Below are positions 22,045 to 32,404 of a stretch of 64,000 nucleotides of DNA, piece by piece. The stretch covers positions 1 to 64,000 of the forward strand of contig JALHRJ010000015.1 in assembly GCA_022841475.1 (NCBI GenBank), in the 5' to 3' direction. How positions within the stretch are numbered: the first letter of the stretch is position 1; each line of letters starts with the position of its first letter. Source of the stretch: Cyclobacteriaceae bacterium. GTDB taxonomy: Bacteria > Bacteroidota > Bacteroidia > Cytophagales > Cyclobacteriaceae. Both the position numbers and the translations under genes were made by a program. The notes under the pieces were generated by a model. That model worked only from the letters and a program-made list of their open reading frames with translations, did no database searches and was not told where the DNA came from.

Positions 22045-22836
22045 TCATTCCTCCTGGGTAGCTAAAGTTTCTGATTCAGTCAAGGGAGCTAACGATTGAA
22101 GCAATTTTTTACGATTGCGCACAACTGATTTTCCATGCATCATCATAATGGGAGTATAAATGAAATAGGTAAATCCCGCAAACATTCCTGCTAACATATG
22201 GCGGTAGAACAAGATGGCCACCAGCACAGAAACTAAAGGAACTACCCCCATTAGAATATTCGATCGGATACTCATGCGGGTGTCAAATCTTTCAATTTCA
22301 TTGAGTTGAAGGTGATCAGCTTGCTTCAGCGCATAACGATACATCAACACCAATACAAAAAATACACTGGCGGCCCCCAACCCATAAATAATCATTAAGT
22401 CACTCATGTCTTCATAGCGAATGTTTCCCTCCAGGGATTTTAGCAATCCCTCATGATTGATCAGGTAGGCAATGGGCTTTAAAAGAAGCCGGGTTAAGAA
22501 TTTTAGTGGGTAAACATAAAATAGCACAATAATCAAAAAGAGGGTATTCAAAAAAACCACATTAGTATCCCGCAACCCATACCGGAAGTAAAAAACAAAA
22601 TGCTCGTGCCAGATAAGAATAATCAGGGCAATGCAAAGAGAGAATGGAATCAGGTCAAAAATGAAGAGTTTAATCTGATCAAAATTGACGGGTGGGCTCG
22701 TTGAGATTAAAAGTAAGGTAATCGCAAGAGCAAAGACGGCATCGCTAAAATTCTCCAGGCGTCCAGGCTCCTTTCCACGAAAGTGAAAGTCTTTATTGGC
22801 GTCAATTTGATTGTTACCTAAGATTTCGCGCATCAT
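22045..22836 (-). CDS. TMEM175-type (DUF1211) cation channel-like protein
   Basis: A 263-residue membrane protein with the hallmark RLENFSDAVFALAITLL (Arg26, Phe30-Ser31-Asp32) that lines the pore in TMEM175 potassium-channel homologues. Bacterial members have six transmembrane helices per subunit and assemble as tetramers; about six hydrophobic segments are visible here. It is the last gene of the operon with BLUF and PrsW: its ATG sits one base after the BLUF stop codon (TGATATG), indicating strict coupling. Ion conduction and its gating are inferred from family knowledge only. Confidence 0.85.
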   Translation of the reverse strand: MMREILGNNQIDANKDFHFRGKEPGRLENFSDAVFALAITLLLISTSPPVNFDQIKLFIFDLIPFSLCIALIILIWHEHFVFYFRYGLRDTNVVFLNTLFLIIVLFYVYPLKFLTRLLLKPIAYLINHEGLLKSLEGNIRYEDMSDLMIIYGLGAASVFFVLVLMYRYALKQADHLQLNEIERFDTRMSIRSNILMGVVPLVSVLVAILFYRHMLAGMFAGFTYFIYTPIMMMHGKSVVRNRKKLLQSLAPLTESETLATQEE

Positions 22837-22837
22837 A

Positions 22838-23281
22838 TCAATACGTGTTTACTTCAGGATAATCAACAAAGTTCTTTTTGTAAAATAATTGCAGGAAGGT
22901 CATCACGGCACTACCATCCGTATCCGTAAGGGGAGTAGCAAAGAATTTTTCAGGGTCGATAAAACCACTTAGTTTAGTGAAATCTGATTCCGAAATCTTC
23001 TTGAATCCCATAGACCAACCTTTGAAAAGACGTTTTGATGAAGTGCCCTCCAGAATTAAGGATACTTTTTTATTTCGTGGGTCTTTGCGGATCATGTCAT
23101 ACAACTCATTAACCGGACCTTCTTTTCCTTCCAGCACCTGAATGAATCTTTCCTGCAGATATACCAACATTCCGGTTATACCCATTTTCTTATTATACAT
23201 TCTGCTCACCGTGAGAATGTCCAACAGATCTTTTTCATGAAGGGGCCGGGATGCATAACTTACATAAACCAGGTGGTACAT
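22838..23281 (-). CDS. BLUF-domain blue-light sensor
   Basis: A 147-residue single-domain protein with a complete BLUF flavin site: Tyr6 in YVSYAS, Asn30 and GITGMLVY, Gln48 in FIQVLEG, and Trp89/Met91 in GWSMGF. The spacing is the same as in the short cyanobacterial PixD type (offset of two). Blue light should shift the FAD-Tyr-Gln hydrogen-bond network and alter interaction with a partner. Only ~50 residues follow the core, so output is by protein contact, not by a fused enzyme. The start at 23281 was chosen because the 23428 frame start lies inside the PrsW gene. It is tightly packed: 10 bases after PrsW, 1 base before the channel gene. Confidence 0.92.
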   Translation of the reverse strand: MYHLVYVSYASRPLHEKDLLDILTVSRMYNKKMGITGMLVYLQERFIQVLEGKEGPVNELYDMIRKDPRNKKVSLILEGTSSKRLFKGWSMGFKKISESDFTKLSGFIDPEKFFATPLTDTDGSAVMTFLQLFYKKNFVDYPEVNTY

Positions 23282-23291
23282 ATCAGGTAGT

Positions 23292-24038
23292 TTATGTTGA
23301 CGGATTAGTAGGATCAGAATTTTCAAGAGGTTGATTCTCCGCGGCAACTTCAACAGCTGGCTTAATGATAAAGGGTGATGCCAACTGATGAATGCGGATT
23401 GCTTTTTTTGCCAACCAGATTCCAACAACCAGAGAGATCAAGGCTCCCAATACAATGCCCGGGACAAAGGAGATAAAGAGAAAATAATCGTAAGCACCAT
23501 GAAAGAGTGTAGCCACACCCAGCGCATGCAAGGCATAGTACGATTTCTTGTGTTCAAATTTTGCTTTGCCCAGGTAATAGCCCATCAGAATGGCAAACAT
23601 GGCGTGAGCCGGCACAGCCGTGAACATACGCAGAATAGCGGTTCCTACGCCACCTTCAAATACGTAAAGGATGTTTTCAAACGTGGCAAAGCCCAGACTT
23701 ACCATCACCGCGTACACAATACCATCAAAGGGTTCATTAAAGTGTTTGTTGTTGTAGAGTATCCCGCGCACAAAAATGAATTTACTGAATTCTTCCACCA
23801 GGGCTACAATCAAAAAAGCATGTACGGCCTGTTCAGTTATACTGCTTTCGTCAATGGTAATAAATTGACCGATGATATCACTGATTAAAAGTGTAATGAA
23901 GATGCTAAGTAATCCAAAGAAAAAACTACGCACTAACAAACCCACCGGCTCCCGTTCGTGACGATCTTTTAAATAAATATAAACAGCAATAGCGCCACCC
24001 GGGGCTAAAGCAAGCGCAAGAAGGATAAGAATGTCCAT
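23292..24038 (-). CDS. PrsW-family intramembrane metalloprotease
   Basis: A 248-residue polytopic protein with the motifs of the PrsW/CAAX-protease-like superfamily: EEFSKF (Glu82, Glu83, Lys86), FENILY (Glu121), PAHAMFAILMG (His145) and FHGAYD (His180, Asp184), each at the ends of membrane helices. Bacillus PrsW cleaves an anti-sigma factor at the membrane; here no anti-sigma factor is adjacent. It sits in a five-gene operon, 9 bases after a four-helix membrane protein and 10 bases before the BLUF photosensor. A natural target would be one of the membrane proteins of the same operon, which is speculation. Confidence 0.85.
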   Translation of the reverse strand: MDILILLALALAPGGAIAVYIYLKDRHEREPVGLLVRSFFFGLLSIFITLLISDIIGQFITIDESSITEQAVHAFLIVALVEEFSKFIFVRGILYNNKHFNEPFDGIVYAVMVSLGFATFENILYVFEGGVGTAILRMFTAVPAHAMFAILMGYYLGKAKFEHKKSYYALHALGVATLFHGAYDYFLFISFVPGIVLGALISLVVGIWLAKKAIRIHQLASPFIIKPAVEVAAENQPLENSDPTNPST

Positions 24039-24047
24039 GGCTTCAGA

Positions 24048-24533
24048 TTAAAACATAGAGAGCTGGTACATGAAATAAACACCCAGCAGTAGCAATCCAA
24101 GGCCGCGAAAAAACGGACTCTTTAATACAACCAGGTTGTCGCGGTTGGTGCCAATCAGCACGGCTGAAAACAGGATACTCACCCCTAATCCCCCGCATCC
24201 GATCAGGAGCATCTGGTCCGCTCCCGGCAATTTCAGCAATGCAAAGAGAATTCCAATTACAGTAACTGCTGACGATATGTATATCAGTTTATAAAGCATG
24301 AAGGAATACAAAGCGGGCTTACAATCCGGAGGTAGTTGAATCATCATAAAAGCCATTAGAAAATAAACTCCGGCTAATGTTGACAGTCCGATCATCAACA
24401 ATTCAGTCGCACCGGTGTAATGCAGCGTTAGAAATCCCAATCCCACCGCACAGATGATAAGTGCAATCATGTGAACATTAGGGAGAATTTTAGTACGAAG
24501 CAGACTAATAAAAGAGGTTTCAGGGGTTGGCAT
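24048..24533 (-). CDS. Four-helix membrane protein B (unknown)
   Basis: A 161-residue protein with four hydrophobic segments and a short cytoplasmic N-terminus. It aligns over its whole length with the neighbouring 157-residue gene at 24597-25070: both share ...LLxIGL, PPxxKPxxY, KLIYxS, a MLLI segment and a RxNxVxL...RG ending. This marks an old tandem duplication. No known family was recognised. Its stop is 9 bases before the PrsW start, so it is part of the BLUF operon. Confidence 0.75.
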   Translation of the reverse strand: MPTPETSFISLLRTKILPNVHMIALIICAVGLGFLTLHYTGATELLMIGLSTLAGVYFLMAFMMIQLPPDCKPALYSFMLYKLIYISSAVTVIGILFALLKLPGADQMLLIGCGGLGVSILFSAVLIGTNRDNLVVLKSPFFRGLGLLLLGVYFMYQLSMF

Positions 24534-24596
24534 AAAAATTCTTTTGATGAAGGTAAACGATTGTTACTTCATCAACAACTACTATGTTTTGAGTTC

Positions 24597-25070
24597 TTAA
24601 TTAACCGATAAGGCCAGCAGCCCCAGCAATGCGGTTGAGAATCCACGAATAAGAGAATCGCGCAGAGTTACGTAATTTTCACGTTTTTGAACCATCAAAA
24701 AGATCGCTGAGGCCAGCGAGACCAACAGGGAGATACCACTGATCAACAGCATTTCGTGATGCCCCACTAATTCGAAGTAGGTATAAAGAACCCCCACCAG
24801 AAGTATGGAGCAACTGAAATAAATCAGTTTGTGAATGAAGGTGGCATAAACATCGGGTTTGCTATGCGGAGGTGTATCCACGGGTAAAAAGGTCCAAACG
24901 AAGTAGGCGATAGATAATAAGACGAGACCCACGATCAACAGTTGTCGTGCGTTCTGGTATTGTAGAAAATGAAAAGCAAGACCAGCTGCCGAAAGAATTA
25001 GTGCTATTTGCTGGAGATACGGTACAAACTGTTTTGCAATTCTTAGTACGCGTAGTCGTGATAAACTCAT
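24597..25070 (-). CDS. Four-helix membrane protein A (unknown)
   Basis: A 157-residue integral membrane protein, first gene of the five-gene BLUF/PrsW/TMEM175 operon. The start is the ATG at 25070 (MSLSRLRVLRIAKQF), giving a basic n-region and four transmembrane segments. It is a paralogue of the next gene (63-base gap). The conserved PPHSKPDVY and KLIYFS motifs at the helix 2-3 junction are the best candidates for a functional site. No family name can be given. Confidence 0.75.
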   Translation of the reverse strand: MSLSRLRVLRIAKQFVPYLQQIALILSAAGLAFHFLQYQNARQLLIVGLVLLSIAYFVWTFLPVDTPPHSKPDVYATFIHKLIYFSCSILLVGVLYTYFELVGHHEMLLISGISLLVSLASAIFLMVQKRENYVTLRDSLIRGFSTALLGLLALSVN

Positions 25071-25142: not shown

Positions 25143-25685
25143 TTAATCCTCAATCGATTCTTCTACTTCGTCCAGTTTGTCTTCGGTGAAACGGCCAGAG
25201 GTTGCATAAACGATCTTGCCCTCTGCGTCAAGCACGAAAAAGTAAGGAATATCACGCTTTTCGAAATCCAGAGCTTCCTTATAGGATTTCAACTCGCCTT
25301 TGTAAAATAAAATGTAGGGTAACAGTTGCGGATCTACATTTTTCAAGGCTTTCTTTTTGGCAGTACCAGTTGCAGCAGCATTAACCCCTGTAAACATGGG
25401 CACAAAGTATACGTTTACATCATAACCCATCCCAGCCATCATACCGGTAGCTTTTTTGATAAACTTATTGTAGACCGGACTGAACCAGCTGTTCAATTCA
25501 TCTTCCGATTTTTTGGAGTAGGCAAGACCCAACAAAGTATATTTGCCTTTTGTATCACCTGGGAGATTCACTTTTTTATCTTCCACGGTTTCGGCTTCCA
25601 TATCGGGAAATTGCTTGCCAATCACCTGGGCGTGTGCGAGATTAAAGCTAGCCAACAGGACAATAAGTGCGATTAGTTTTTTCAT
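25143..25685 (-). CDS. Exported thioredoxin-fold protein without CXXC
   Basis: A signal peptide (MKKLIALIVLLASFNLAHAQ) precedes a ~160-residue domain with the thioredoxin/AhpC-like layout: GKQFPDMEAETVEDKKVNLPGDTKGKYTLLGL as the first strand, and IPYFFVLDAEGKIVYATSG as the cis-Pro/last-strand region. The position where a CXXC would be has YSKKSEDE, so it is probably not a redox enzyme. It may act in binding or assembly, as ATP10-like proteins do. It is followed upstream by a TlpA-like gene on the same strand, 46 bases away. Confidence 0.65.
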   Translation of the reverse strand: MKKLIALIVLLASFNLAHAQVIGKQFPDMEAETVEDKKVNLPGDTKGKYTLLGLAYSKKSEDELNSWFSPVYNKFIKKATGMMAGMGYDVNVYFVPMFTGVNAAATGTAKKKALKNVDPQLLPYILFYKGELKSYKEALDFEKRDIPYFFVLDAEGKIVYATSGRFTEDKLDEVEESIED

Positions 25686-28846: not shown

Positions 28847-31800
28847 ATGTTCCTGCCTATATTTTGGTTCGAACTCAAGTATTGGTTTCGTAGCCCCCCA
28901 TTCTATTTTTATATCCTTATTTTTCTGCTTCTGGCACTTGCGATTATGGGCGGAAGCGCTGGGGTGTTTGGTGCAGCTGCAAATACTAACCGAATAGCGA
29001 ACTCACCACTGAGCTTGTATTCCTTCGTAACTCTTTTCAATAAGCTTATTCTTTTCATAATCCCCGGCATCATAGGTAATGCTATTTACCGTGATTTTAA
29101 GAGCCGGAGTTATCAGGTGATGTATACATTTCCCTTTACCAGGTGGGATTATCTCGGTGGCAAATTTTTAAGCTCGCTATTTATTGTGATGATGATTTCC
29201 GCAGTTACACTTCTTGGTCTCTATATAGGAACTCAGTTGCCGGGTACAAATCAAAACATGCTTGTTGACTTTGATCTAAAAACTTATTTGCAATTGTACG
29301 GAATCTATCTTCTGCCCAACATATTTTTATTTGGAAGCTTGGTATTCGCCACCGTTACATTATCGCGCAATGTGTATACTGGCTTCATCGTTATTGTACT
29401 GTTGCTGATTATTCGTGAAGTGACATCAAAAATAATAGCCGGCTCTGGAGGCATACTGGCTTTGATTGTTGAACCGCTAGGCGAAACAGCTACCTTATTC
29501 GTGACAAAAAGTTGGACAATAGCCGAACAGAATAATAACTCCCTTCCTCTGGTACAGGAAATTCTATTTAATCGTCTGCTGTGGCTTAGTATTGCGTTCG
29601 CATTAGTTGTCTTTACCTATCGAAACTTCTCATTTAGTCACCTTGGATGGAGTATGTCAATGACTGCCAACAAGTCCGCACGGAGTACGAAGAATAATTT
29701 CGGTAGCCTGATCAAACTGAGACTCACTGCCATTCAACTCGATTTTAGTTGGATTCATCAGTTGCGGCTCATATGGCGTCTTTCCCAGGTTGATTTCAGG
29801 TATATACTTCGCAGCGGTTCTTTTATCAGCATCGTCTTAATCGGTGCAATCCTCGTTGTTGTTTTACTTAAACAAATGAACCCTCCGTATGAAACCCGGA
29901 TACTTCCGGTAACGTGGGTCATGTTGGCCTTTCCGATTTTCTTTTTCTCGCTTCTTGTAAACTTCTTGACATTTTTATACGCTGGCATTTTAATCCACAG
30001 AAGCCGGAGCACAAGAATGGATGAGCTATTGGATGTTACGCCTGCAAGTAATGTAGTTTTTGCTCTGTCAAAATTGCTGACCCTTGTAAAAATTCAATTG
30101 GTTTTGCTTGTAGTTATATTTTTATCGGGTATTGGTGTACAAGCCTATTCGGGATACTATCTGTTTGAAGTCGGCCATTATCTGTTTGACTTGCTTGCTA
30201 TCCATCTTATCGGATTTATAATCTGGGCAATAGCGGCTGTATATGTTCATACCGTTGTTTCTAATTCCTATTTGGGTCTGTTTATTTTAATACTTGGCTT
30301 CTTTAGCTCCTCACAGCTACAGCTAGTCGGACTCGATTCCTTAGTGTTTCAATTCAATCAGGATATTGAGCCTGGCTTTTTCATGAAGTACTCTAATATG
30401 AATGGCCACGGACATTCCTTGATCTCCTATTTCATTCTGAAAGGGTATTGGTTAGTATTTGGATTGCTTTTGTTTATCGTAGCCGTTATCGCGTGGTCAA
30501 GGGGAACTTCACAGACGGCAAGGGCAAGATTTGTAATGACGGGCGAAAGATTAAAAGGAAAGCTTGGGCTGGTACTTGTTCTCGCCATCGTCATAGTAAT
30601 GGTGGCTGGCTTTACAGTCTATCGAATGGAAAATATTTTTCATGTGCCCAACGAGGCAGTGCGGAATCAAATCAACAGATCAGCAGACAAAAAATATGGG
30701 CATCTGAAAACTTTTAAACAGCCTCGAATTGTACATGTTGCGGTGACTATGCACTTGTTTCCTGACAAAGAGACGTTTGAATCAACTGGCGCATTTACAC
30801 TCATCAATAAAACAAATGAATATATCGACACGCTGTTAGTTAATTACTCACATGATGCAATTACCCAATACAAAGCTGACCGGGAATATGAAGTCTTATT
30901 AAAAGACTCCACCGCAAAATTTGATATTAATCGATTAAAGCAACCCCTTGCTCCTGGCGACAGCCTGCATCTTTACTTTAGTGTAAGGAGCATTCCAAAT
31001 ACATGGCTATATCAAAATTCTCCTGTATTGAAGAATGGCACGTTTGTTACTTCACTCATTTATCCTGGAGTTGGTTACTATTCATCCGCTCTACGGGCCG
31101 ATTCAAACGACCGCTTCGCTCGGCAAAATCATTATCGCTCCATCGACTCAGATTATATTTCATTCAAGGCCACCGTTAGTACTTCGTCTGATCAAATCGC
31201 AATAGCACCTGGATATTTAACAAAAGAATGGACAGAGAATGGAAGAAATTTCTTTCAGTATCAATCAACCACTAACGTCACCAACGACTATGCTTTTACT
31301 TCCGGCAGGTATCAGGTGTTAAAAGACAAATACAAAGACATTAACCTCGAAATCTATTATCACCCCAGCCACACGTACAATCTCATCCATTTCATGAATG
31401 GCTTGAAGTCCACCTTGGAATATTGCGAAAAACACTTTGGCCCGTACCAGCATAAACAAATAAGAATAATTGAGTACTCACGAAAAGCAGGTGACTTTGC
31501 TCAAGCATTTGCTAACACCATCCCGATGTCGGAGCGAAATTTTATCATGGATATTGATGAGTCTAATCCACAGGCGTGGAATTTAAGTTTTTTAGGAGCG
31601 TCACATGAACTGGCACATCAATGGTGGGGACATCAGGTGATTCCTGCCGATGTGGAAGGGAGCCGAATGATTACAGAAAGTATGGCAGAGTATGTGTCGC
31701 TTTGTGTGTTGGAACAAAGATATGGTAAGGAGAAAGGTAAGCTTTTCCGGAAAAAGGCGCTGGATATTTATTTGAAGCGAAGAATTGAAGACGAAGATGA

Positions 31801-32404
31801 AAGATCTTTAATCCACAATACCGGGCTTGATAAATCCTATATTCCTTACCAAAAGGGATCGCTAGCGTTGTATTCACTTCGAGATCACATAGGAGAAGAG
31901 ACTATAAATCGTGCACTGCGTTCCTATTTGGAGCAAGTTAAATTTCAACAATCTCCCTACACAACTTCTGATGAAATGGTTCACTATCTATACCGGGCTA
32001 CACCCGATTCATTAAAATATCTAATTCATGATCTTTTCGAAACCGTTACACTGTATGAAAATAAGCTTGAGCAATATGATGTGGCCAATCTTGAAACCGG
32101 TCAGTATGAAGTAACCATTGATTTTACTATTACAAAATTTCATATCGTAAAAGGTACTAAGGTTTTCGTGGATGAAACCGGTCATACTCTAACTGCAGAA
32201 GATAGGAACTTAGTGTTGTCCTCATTACCCTTGAGTGACTTTGTTGAAATAGGAATCTATTCTACCACAGGTGAAGAATTATACCTGAGAAAACACTTTG
32301 TGAATCAAATTAAAAATAGAGTCAGTATTATAGTTGATAAAACCCCAGGTCAGGTGGCTATCGATCCGCTCGTAAAATTATTGGCCATTCAAACCGATAA
32401 TTAG
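28847..32404 (+). CDS. ABC permease fused to an M1 aminopeptidase domain
   Basis: A 1185-residue fusion. Residues 1-~600 contain two ABC-2-like membrane blocks, with helices around residues 15-260 and again from ~325 to 580 (each begins WF/FRYILRSG-like). After ~620 an exported M1 domain follows with HELAHQWWGHQV (His920) and, 19 residues after the HEXXH, Glu in MITESMAEY; M1 enzymes usually have 18. The catalytic part thus sits outside the cytoplasm, tethered to the transporter. This architecture is known in Bacteroidota but its substrate is not. Partner ATPase is the gene immediately upstream. Confidence 0.9.
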   Translation: MFLPIFWFELKYWFRSPPFYFYILIFLLLALAIMGGSAGVFGAAANTNRIANSPLSLYSFVTLFNKLILFIIPGIIGNAIYRDFKSRSYQVMYTFPFTRWDYLGGKFLSSLFIVMMISAVTLLGLYIGTQLPGTNQNMLVDFDLKTYLQLYGIYLLPNIFLFGSLVFATVTLSRNVYTGFIVIVLLLIIREVTSKIIAGSGGILALIVEPLGETATLFVTKSWTIAEQNNNSLPLVQEILFNRLLWLSIAFALVVFTYRNFSFSHLGWSMSMTANKSARSTKNNFGSLIKLRLTAIQLDFSWIHQLRLIWRLSQVDFRYILRSGSFISIVLIGAILVVVLLKQMNPPYETRILPVTWVMLAFPIFFFSLLVNFLTFLYAGILIHRSRSTRMDELLDVTPASNVVFALSKLLTLVKIQLVLLVVIFLSGIGVQAYSGYYLFEVGHYLFDLLAIHLIGFIIWAIAAVYVHTVVSNSYLGLFILILGFFSSSQLQLVGLDSLVFQFNQDIEPGFFMKYSNMNGHGHSLISYFILKGYWLVFGLLLFIVAVIAWSRGTSQTARARFVMTGERLKGKLGLVLVLAIVIVMVAGFTVYRMENIFHVPNEAVRNQINRSADKKYGHLKTFKQPRIVHVAVTMHLFPDKETFESTGAFTLINKTNEYIDTLLVNYSHDAITQYKADREYEVLLKDSTAKFDINRLKQPLAPGDSLHLYFSVRSIPNTWLYQNSPVLKNGTFVTSLIYPGVGYYSSALRADSNDRFARQNHYRSIDSDYISFKATVSTSSDQIAIAPGYLTKEWTENGRNFFQYQSTTNVTNDYAFTSGRYQVLKDKYKDINLEIYYHPSHTYNLIHFMNGLKSTLEYCEKHFGPYQHKQIRIIEYSRKAGDFAQAFANTIPMSERNFIMDIDESNPQAWNLSFLGASHELAHQWWGHQVIPADVEGSRMITESMAEYVSLCVLEQRYGKEKGKLFRKKALDIYLKRRIEDEDERSLIHNTGLDKSYIPYQKGSLALYSLRDHIGEETINRALRSYLEQVKFQQSPYTTSDEMVHYLYRATPDSLKYLIHDLFETVTLYENKLEQYDVANLETGQYEVTIDFTITKFHIVKGTKVFVDETGHTLTAEDRNLVLSSLPLSDFVEIGIYSTTGEELYLRKHFVNQIKNRVSIIVDKTPGQVAIDPLVKLLAIQTDN

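Follow-up and report, generated by a model that had tools for sequence, protein, structure and literature searches.

Short BLUF proteins act as simple light switches; to our knowledge, their partners have been identified in few cases. PixD signals to the soluble partner PixE, and Tyr, Asn, Gln, Trp and Met residues have roles in the BLUF flavin site. PrsW is the site-1 protease of RsiW in Bacillus subtilis, and in PrsW-family glutamic intramembrane proteases the EExxK motif and the histidine motifs are catalytic. For the TMEM175 channel of Marivirga tractuosa (MtTMEM175), the accessible part of a published report states that Thr38 confers K+ selectivity (PMC7176437). Here, we describe a locus in which genes for proteins of these three kinds lie side by side. 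It occupies positions 22045-25070 on the minus strand of a 64,000-nucleotide stretch (hereafter the window; positions 1 to 64,000 of contig JALHRJ010000015.1, assembly GCA_022841475.1) from a Cyclobacteriaceae bacterium. The order of PrsW and BLUF genes recurs in relatives, often with the channel gene adjoining, which suggests that light may control protein cleavage within the membrane. The five genes of the locus are:

22045..22836, minus strand: predicted TMEM175-type potassium channel, 263 amino acids (Pfam; match to MtTMEM175, 6hd8; structure model)
22838..23281, minus strand: PixD-type (short) BLUF photoreceptor, 147 amino acids (Pfam BLUF; alignment of 28 proteins)
23292..24038, minus strand: PrsW-family intramembrane protease, 248 amino acids (Pfam PrsW-protease; NCBIfam; alignment of 27 proteins)
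24048..24533, minus strand: small membrane protein with GldL-N-type hairpins (helixB), 161 amino acids (Pfam GldL_N; GldL profile matches; model)
24597..25070, minus strand: second copy of the GldL-hairpin membrane protein, 157 amino acids (identity to the 24048..24533 protein)

The original prediction had listed five minus-strand genes at this place, and their coordinates and successive gaps of 63, 9, 10 and 1 bases were reproduced. Pfam scores exceeded the cut-offs for four of the five proteins (GldL_N, PrsW-protease, BLUF and TMEM175). The 22838..23281 protein scored 98.3 bits for BLUF (cut-off 25), and all flavin-site residues (Tyr6, Asn30, Gln48, Trp89 and Met91) are there and invariant in 28/28 aligned proteins, bearing out its description as a PixD-type BLUF protein with a complete flavin site. 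Its best matches among solved structures are Tll0078 and Slr1694, and the C-terminal tail carries the conserved sequence FLxLFYKKNxxDYxE. It is the single BLUF found in the window's genome (94% complete). The PrsW protein scored 136.3 bits for PrsW-protease (cut-off 23.5), and its motifs comprise EExxK (Glu82, Glu83, Lys86), Glu121/Asn122, His145, His180 and Asp184, all of which, Asn122 aside, are invariant in 27/27 aligned proteins, in agreement with the predicted PrsW-like intramembrane protease. Its score of 177.4 bits misses the equivalog cut-off of 225 for the NCBIfam family intramemb_PrsW (NF033739), and the protein is therefore a member of the PrsW family, not established as a B. subtilis-type PrsW. 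Judged by the intact flavin-site and motif residues, both the photoreceptor and the protease look functional.

The third protein had been called channel-like on account of an RxxxFSD motif and can now be named as closely related to MtTMEM175, a K+ channel of solved structure. The motif is present, with Arg26 and Asp32 invariant in 27/27 proteins, and the Pfam TMEM175 score is 34.7 bits (cut-off 25). Its sequence matches 6hd8 with an E value of 4e-57, and the predicted model has the same fold as 6hd8, 6hdc and 6swr (template modelling scores 0.74-0.87), with 42-43% identity to MtTMEM175 over 219-229 structurally aligned columns. Thr40, aligned with Thr38 of MtTMEM175, is at least 90% conserved among the 27 proteins. 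From sequence and model, the protein is predicted to be a TMEM175-type K+ channel.

The neighbourhood of BLUF genes was surveyed in named genomes with an alignment of 13 BLUF sequences as query, which returned 79 BLUF loci with flanks of at most 5 kilobases (kb), less on short contigs. In the following, G-numbers denote genomes and L-numbers loci; g1, g54 and g86 are genera, of which we take g54 to be Chryseotalea, and f13 is a family. In 18 of the 79 loci, PrsW is the gene directly upstream of BLUF and has the same orientation, and in 2 more one gene lies between them; within these flanks, PrsW was not found near BLUF in the other 59. Among the 18 directly linked loci is that of Chryseotalea sanaruensis Ys (L143), and a TMEM175 gene stands behind BLUF in 7 of them, some loci stopping at a contig edge. 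A tree of PrsW proteins covered 22 distinct genomes with BLUF immediately behind PrsW, belonging to two genera and with different surroundings; its 46 rows were chosen by hand, and 22/46 is therefore no rate. BLUF is broken in two of these 22 (G025, L145). The linked BLUF proteins are 40-60% identical to that of the window. PrsW and BLUF are separated by 5-68 bases, and BLUF and TMEM175 by -4 to 6 bases. The linked pair is found next to ATP10, with or without a GldL-hairpin gene, or next to a type III pantothenate kinase gene, and in Chryseotalea it is preceded by a divergent pseudouridine synthase gene and followed by a dipeptidyl peptidase IV gene. Adjacency in relatives, on which the coupling proposed in the original prediction depended, thus stands for BLUF and PrsW in two genera and several surroundings, and is weaker for TMEM175 and the GldL-hairpin gene.

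Of genus g1, 41 genomes were examined: 27 have PrsW, 16 have TMEM175 and 12 have a BLUF of this clade, counting remnants and proteins with at least 46% identity. PrsW is immediately upstream in 10 of these 12, including G025 with its broken BLUF; of the remaining two, G034 has only a solo BLUF and G035 retains a BLUF remnant, and PrsW is absent from both. G015, which carries a more distant BLUF (33%) and PrsW on different contigs, was left out of the count. TMEM175 is located directly behind PrsW in 8 of its 16 g1 genomes (some in pieces) and behind PrsW-BLUF in 6; the remaining two (G333, G014) have no PrsW. PrsW-TMEM175 without BLUF occurs in g1 (G020, G324) as well as in g86, with gaps of -4, -4, -4 and 62 bases (G020, G324, G336 and G122), and ATP10-PrsW without BLUF occurs in more genomes. 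In five g54 genomes the BLUF-PrsW pair is kept, with TMEM175 either on another contig or 13 kb or more away from PrsW. Since TMEM175 accompanies PrsW without BLUF and BLUF accompanies PrsW without TMEM175, PrsW looks like the centre to which BLUF and TMEM175 are each attached.

A second PrsW was seen in g86: a single aminotransferase gene separates it from BLUF in G122 and G208, and in G264 the distance is 3.5 kb. In four g86 loci (L088, L089, L091 and L092) BLUF is positioned between a class V aminotransferase gene and a YtxH-like gene, with PrsW upstream or not; in L088 two further genes intervene. PrsW genes without an adjacent BLUF, together with the broken linked BLUFs of G025 and L145, indicate that PrsW is retained without BLUF. 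Decaying copies were found at these places:

L107:6468-7096 and L145:5001-5433: BLUF in pieces behind PrsW
L116:5175-5899: BLUF remnant behind the GldL-hairpin gene, PrsW gone
L115:5659-6377: PrsW in three pieces

The frequency of the linkage was further assessed in two genome collections, a family set of 295 genomes, which overlaps with the named-genome loci so that the counts are not independent, and an order set of 341 genomes. Both genes occur in 33 of the 295 family genomes, directly adjacent in 9 and with one gene between in 2. Random gene order would yield about 0.007 adjacencies versus the 9 seen, a figure calculated for 33 genomes with an assumed 4000 genes per genome and ignoring kinship. 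The order set has BLUF in 123/341 genomes and PrsW in 56/341. Direct BLUF adjacency takes 6 changes on the 46-protein PrsW tree versus a shuffled mean of 15.7, and PrsW adjacency on a tree of 61 BLUFs likewise takes 6, versus a mean of 17.0. Linked and solo BLUFs are intermixed in one clade, some placements being unsure owing to long branches. This mingled clade fits an old linkage with several losses; repeated gain would also be possible. The ratio of nonsynonymous to synonymous substitution rates (dN/dS) of BLUF was 0.03-0.20 in 6 of 12 pairs tried, several of these with dS above 1; three of the six pairs are directly PrsW-linked, two are from g86 with PrsW nearby and one is solo. As to the wider occurrence of BLUF, one scan of viral contigs with the BLUF protein as query, a search limited to close relatives, gave no match, and as many as 8 BLUF genes in a single genome were counted in genus g13 of family f13 in the order set versus one in the window's genome.

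The reading we favour starts from what is directly supported, namely the identities of the genes, the recurrence of the order PrsW>BLUF(>TMEM175), the low BLUF dN/dS in the measurable close pairs and the intact flavin-site and protease residues. It holds that BLUF and PrsW form a light-signalling pair within a PrsW/TMEM175 membrane module, and we infer the step from light to protease; we regard this as a tentative proposal that comes close to an even call and stays short of it. A module of a PrsW-family protease and a TMEM175 K+ channel would have recruited a short BLUF as light input. Blue light would flip the Tyr/Gln/Trp switch around the flavin, upon which the C-terminal BLUF helices would alter their contacts. 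The partner contacted would be PrsW at its cytoplasmic face, and light would switch the cleavage of a PrsW substrate, possibly a membrane-anchored regulator. As for the channel, a role as co-regulated effector of the PrsW module is more probable than one as direct BLUF target. In a more specific form, BLUF would photo-switch PrsW cleavage on or off, the MtTMEM175-type channel from the same operon would be substrate or co-effector, and light would change both a membrane-anchored regulator and the membrane potential, in what would be a pathway of light-regulated intramembrane proteolysis; this form we consider unlikely, if by no means far-fetched.

Several observations weigh against so close a pairing. 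BLUF of this clade is not always accompanied by PrsW, solo copies being found in several genomes beside various unrelated genes; G034, a genome of 100% completeness, lacks PrsW and carries its BLUF as a solo copy. Conversely, 17 of the 27 g1 genomes with PrsW are without a BLUF found beside it. The C-terminal BLUF tail is equally kept in solo members of the clade in the 28-protein alignment, so its conservation is no pointer to PrsW in particular. A search for PrsW alignment columns that track BLUF presence, in which 5 columns surpassed the highest of 200 shuffled maxima (0.334), is confounded by kinship. For the other 6 of the 12 BLUF pairs dS was saturated and no dN/dS was obtainable. Outside the window's family, 10 order-set genomes carry both genes and 0/10 have the two on a single contig, and the linked genomes of the family set all fall into one family, so that shared descent accounts for part of the count. 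As far as seen, the BLUF-PrsW linkage belongs to the window's family.

The chief rival to the favoured reading is that BLUF is merely co-transcribed with PrsW and the channel, the operon setting their common expression, and acts on a soluble regulator encoded elsewhere, as BlsA does on Fur in Acinetobacter. The solo BLUFs beside unrelated genes, the G034 genome and a tail that is conserved equally well in solo as in linked proteins all speak for it, as does the light modulation of iron deficiency responses by BlsA, for which Fur is named in the accessible part of the report (PMC5955987). However, it leaves unexplained why PrsW recurs beside BLUF in two genera and in different surroundings. We consider such a soluble output doubtful, while granting it a substantial chance.

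A neutral neighbourhood, in which BLUF came to lie behind PrsW a single time, in an ancestor, and was then inherited at that place with no functional link, would agree with the confinement of the linked family-set genomes to one family, with several BLUFs being broken or missing, and with the 6 gains or losses on each tree, which fit a single origin and repeated loss. Yet the pair has been kept while the linked BLUFs diverged and their surroundings were reshuffled, and BLUF dN/dS is well below 1 where measured, which makes neutrality improbable to us. Direct gating of TMEM175 by BLUF, i.e. a light-gated K+ conductance, draws on the retained K+ selectivity threonine and on the BLUF and TMEM175 genes almost touching in the six g1 loci measured. 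But TMEM175 is equally close behind PrsW where BLUF is absent, it follows BLUF in just 7 of the 18 directly linked loci (some ending at a contig edge), and the five g54 genomes keep BLUF-PrsW with TMEM175 at a distance. This explanation appears to us highly improbable, and the channel was rejected as the main partner of BLUF because TMEM175 is unlinked in g54.

We also considered how the genes of the window might be transcribed, for which two further features are relevant:

24544..24575, no strand: perfect inverted repeat, two 9-base arms with 14 bases between (found once in the window and in none of 100 shuffles)
25143..25685, minus strand: ATP10/thioredoxin-like protein, 180 amino acids (Pfam ATP-synt_10, 26.8 bits, cut-off 22.3; neighbourhoods)

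Spacings as short as 9, 10 and 1 bases suggest a single unit made up of helixB, prsW, bluf and the channel gene. The 63-base gap (24534-24596) contains the inverted repeat, which folded as RNA gave z = -1.9 and is a possible leader hairpin, operator or weak terminator. The corresponding gap in five relatives holds stem-loops of unrelated sequence:

Window 24534-24596; L083:9787-9840; L105:778-834; L110:5152-5248; L112:7181-7232; L113:5799-5851: gap before the GldL-hairpin gene, with stem-loops

The z-scores of the gap folds were -1.2, -2.1, -5.9, -3.2 and -5.5 in the relatives, and all six gaps, that of the window included, beat the shuffle mean. The L113 gap has a perfect 12-base inverted repeat, and the hairpin in the L110 gap has the form of a terminator. 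A seventh locus, L085, has a gap of just 4 bases. Stem-loops in the window and in five relatives make the hairpin before the GldL-hairpin gene a recurrent feature. Given this hairpin, the first small gene (24597..25070) and ATP10 may be on transcripts separate from the downstream one. Co-regulation of all five genes had been seen as suggested by their packing; this is upheld as a suggestion for the helixB-prsW-bluf-channel part, and the first small gene is perhaps separate. The ATP10-like gene lies 72 bases upstream of the cluster and belongs to the conserved neighbourhood, in which it is found upstream of PrsW with or without BLUF. No RNA was detected in the window by Rfam at gathering scores, and a scan of the window for sigma-70 promoters and terminators gave no excess over shuffles. 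The sequence TTTACCTT recurs a short way ahead of the GldL-hairpin gene, in the window (24500-24600) as well as in the L105 and L113 gaps. We take it to be perhaps a Bacteroidota-type promoter element; occurrence by chance is possible.

The two small membrane proteins had been described as related four-helix proteins. Their relationship is upheld by 35-37% identity; five helices rather than four are predicted in the one modelled (24048..24533; mean predicted local distance difference test score 93). This protein scores 27.9 bits for GldL_N (cut-off 24) in two stretches, and its profile matches the GldL chains 7sau, 7sax and 7sat; no Pfam family was assigned to the 24597..25070 protein. A fold search with the model returned nothing below E 0.001, GldL chains being among the weak matches. 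In GldL, a Glu in the second helix has a role in the motor. The organism's own GldL reads GLSVEAGIFF in this helix versus GLSTLAGVYF in the cluster protein; the Glu is replaced, a motor role is unlikely, and the small proteins were rejected as motor parts. Only certain PrsW loci include the GldL-hairpin gene, and its second copy was seen solely in the window among 40 wide loci (0 in the other 39). Relatives of the protein occur in many family genomes (20 fetched, L240-L259), mostly away from known PrsW loci. In L111 (G324), ATP10 and the GldL-hairpin gene are 1349 bases apart, and this gap holds a reversed reading frame of 412 amino acids. Downstream of the cluster there is a convergent M14 peptidase gene, and positions 28847-32404 of the window encode a protein of 1185 amino acids that combines a peptidase M1 domain with an ABC-2-like membrane part, the latter scoring slightly below the Pfam cut-off.

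A literature search, whose scope took in few subscription papers, returned no report of a BLUF-PrsW pair and nothing related for BLUF with TMEM175. Among the matches for PrsW in Bacteroidetes was a paper about polymorphic toxins in which PrsW is named 37 times (PMC3482391). Among the matches listed, none was on the topic of TMEM175 gene context, and those for blue light and intramembrane proteolysis included no blue-light work. Each part of the locus is of a known kind, and the pairing of BLUF with PrsW was not found in print. If the favoured reading is correct, a natural BLUF-PrsW pair would place a light input on an intramembrane protease. It would also point to a function of PrsW in Bacteroidota and provide a biological setting for bacterial TMEM175 channels. 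As a named strain, Chryseotalea sanaruensis Ys, carries the pair, the pairing is open to experiment.

Compared with GldL, the transmembrane part of the gliding and type IX secretion motor, helixB shares the hairpin sequence, matching GldL_N and GldL chains, but differs in having five predicted helices in 161 amino acids, no large cytoplasmic domain and a replaced Glu. The window channel has the fold, the selectivity threonine and 42-43% of the residues of MtTMEM175 (6hd8) in common; a sensor or protease partner is not mentioned for MtTMEM175 in the accessible part of its report (PMC7176437). The window PrsW belongs to the same Pfam family as B. subtilis PrsW and shares the EExxK and His motifs, but reaches 177 of 225 NCBIfam bits and has a photoreceptor gene behind it. 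Finally, PixD/Slr1694, Tll0078 and BlsA resemble the window BLUF in consisting of a single BLUF domain with a full flavin site and a C-terminal tail of about 50 residues. BlsA, according to the accessible part of the report, signals to the soluble Fur (PMC5955987), whereas the recurrent neighbour of the window BLUF is the gene of an intramembrane protease.

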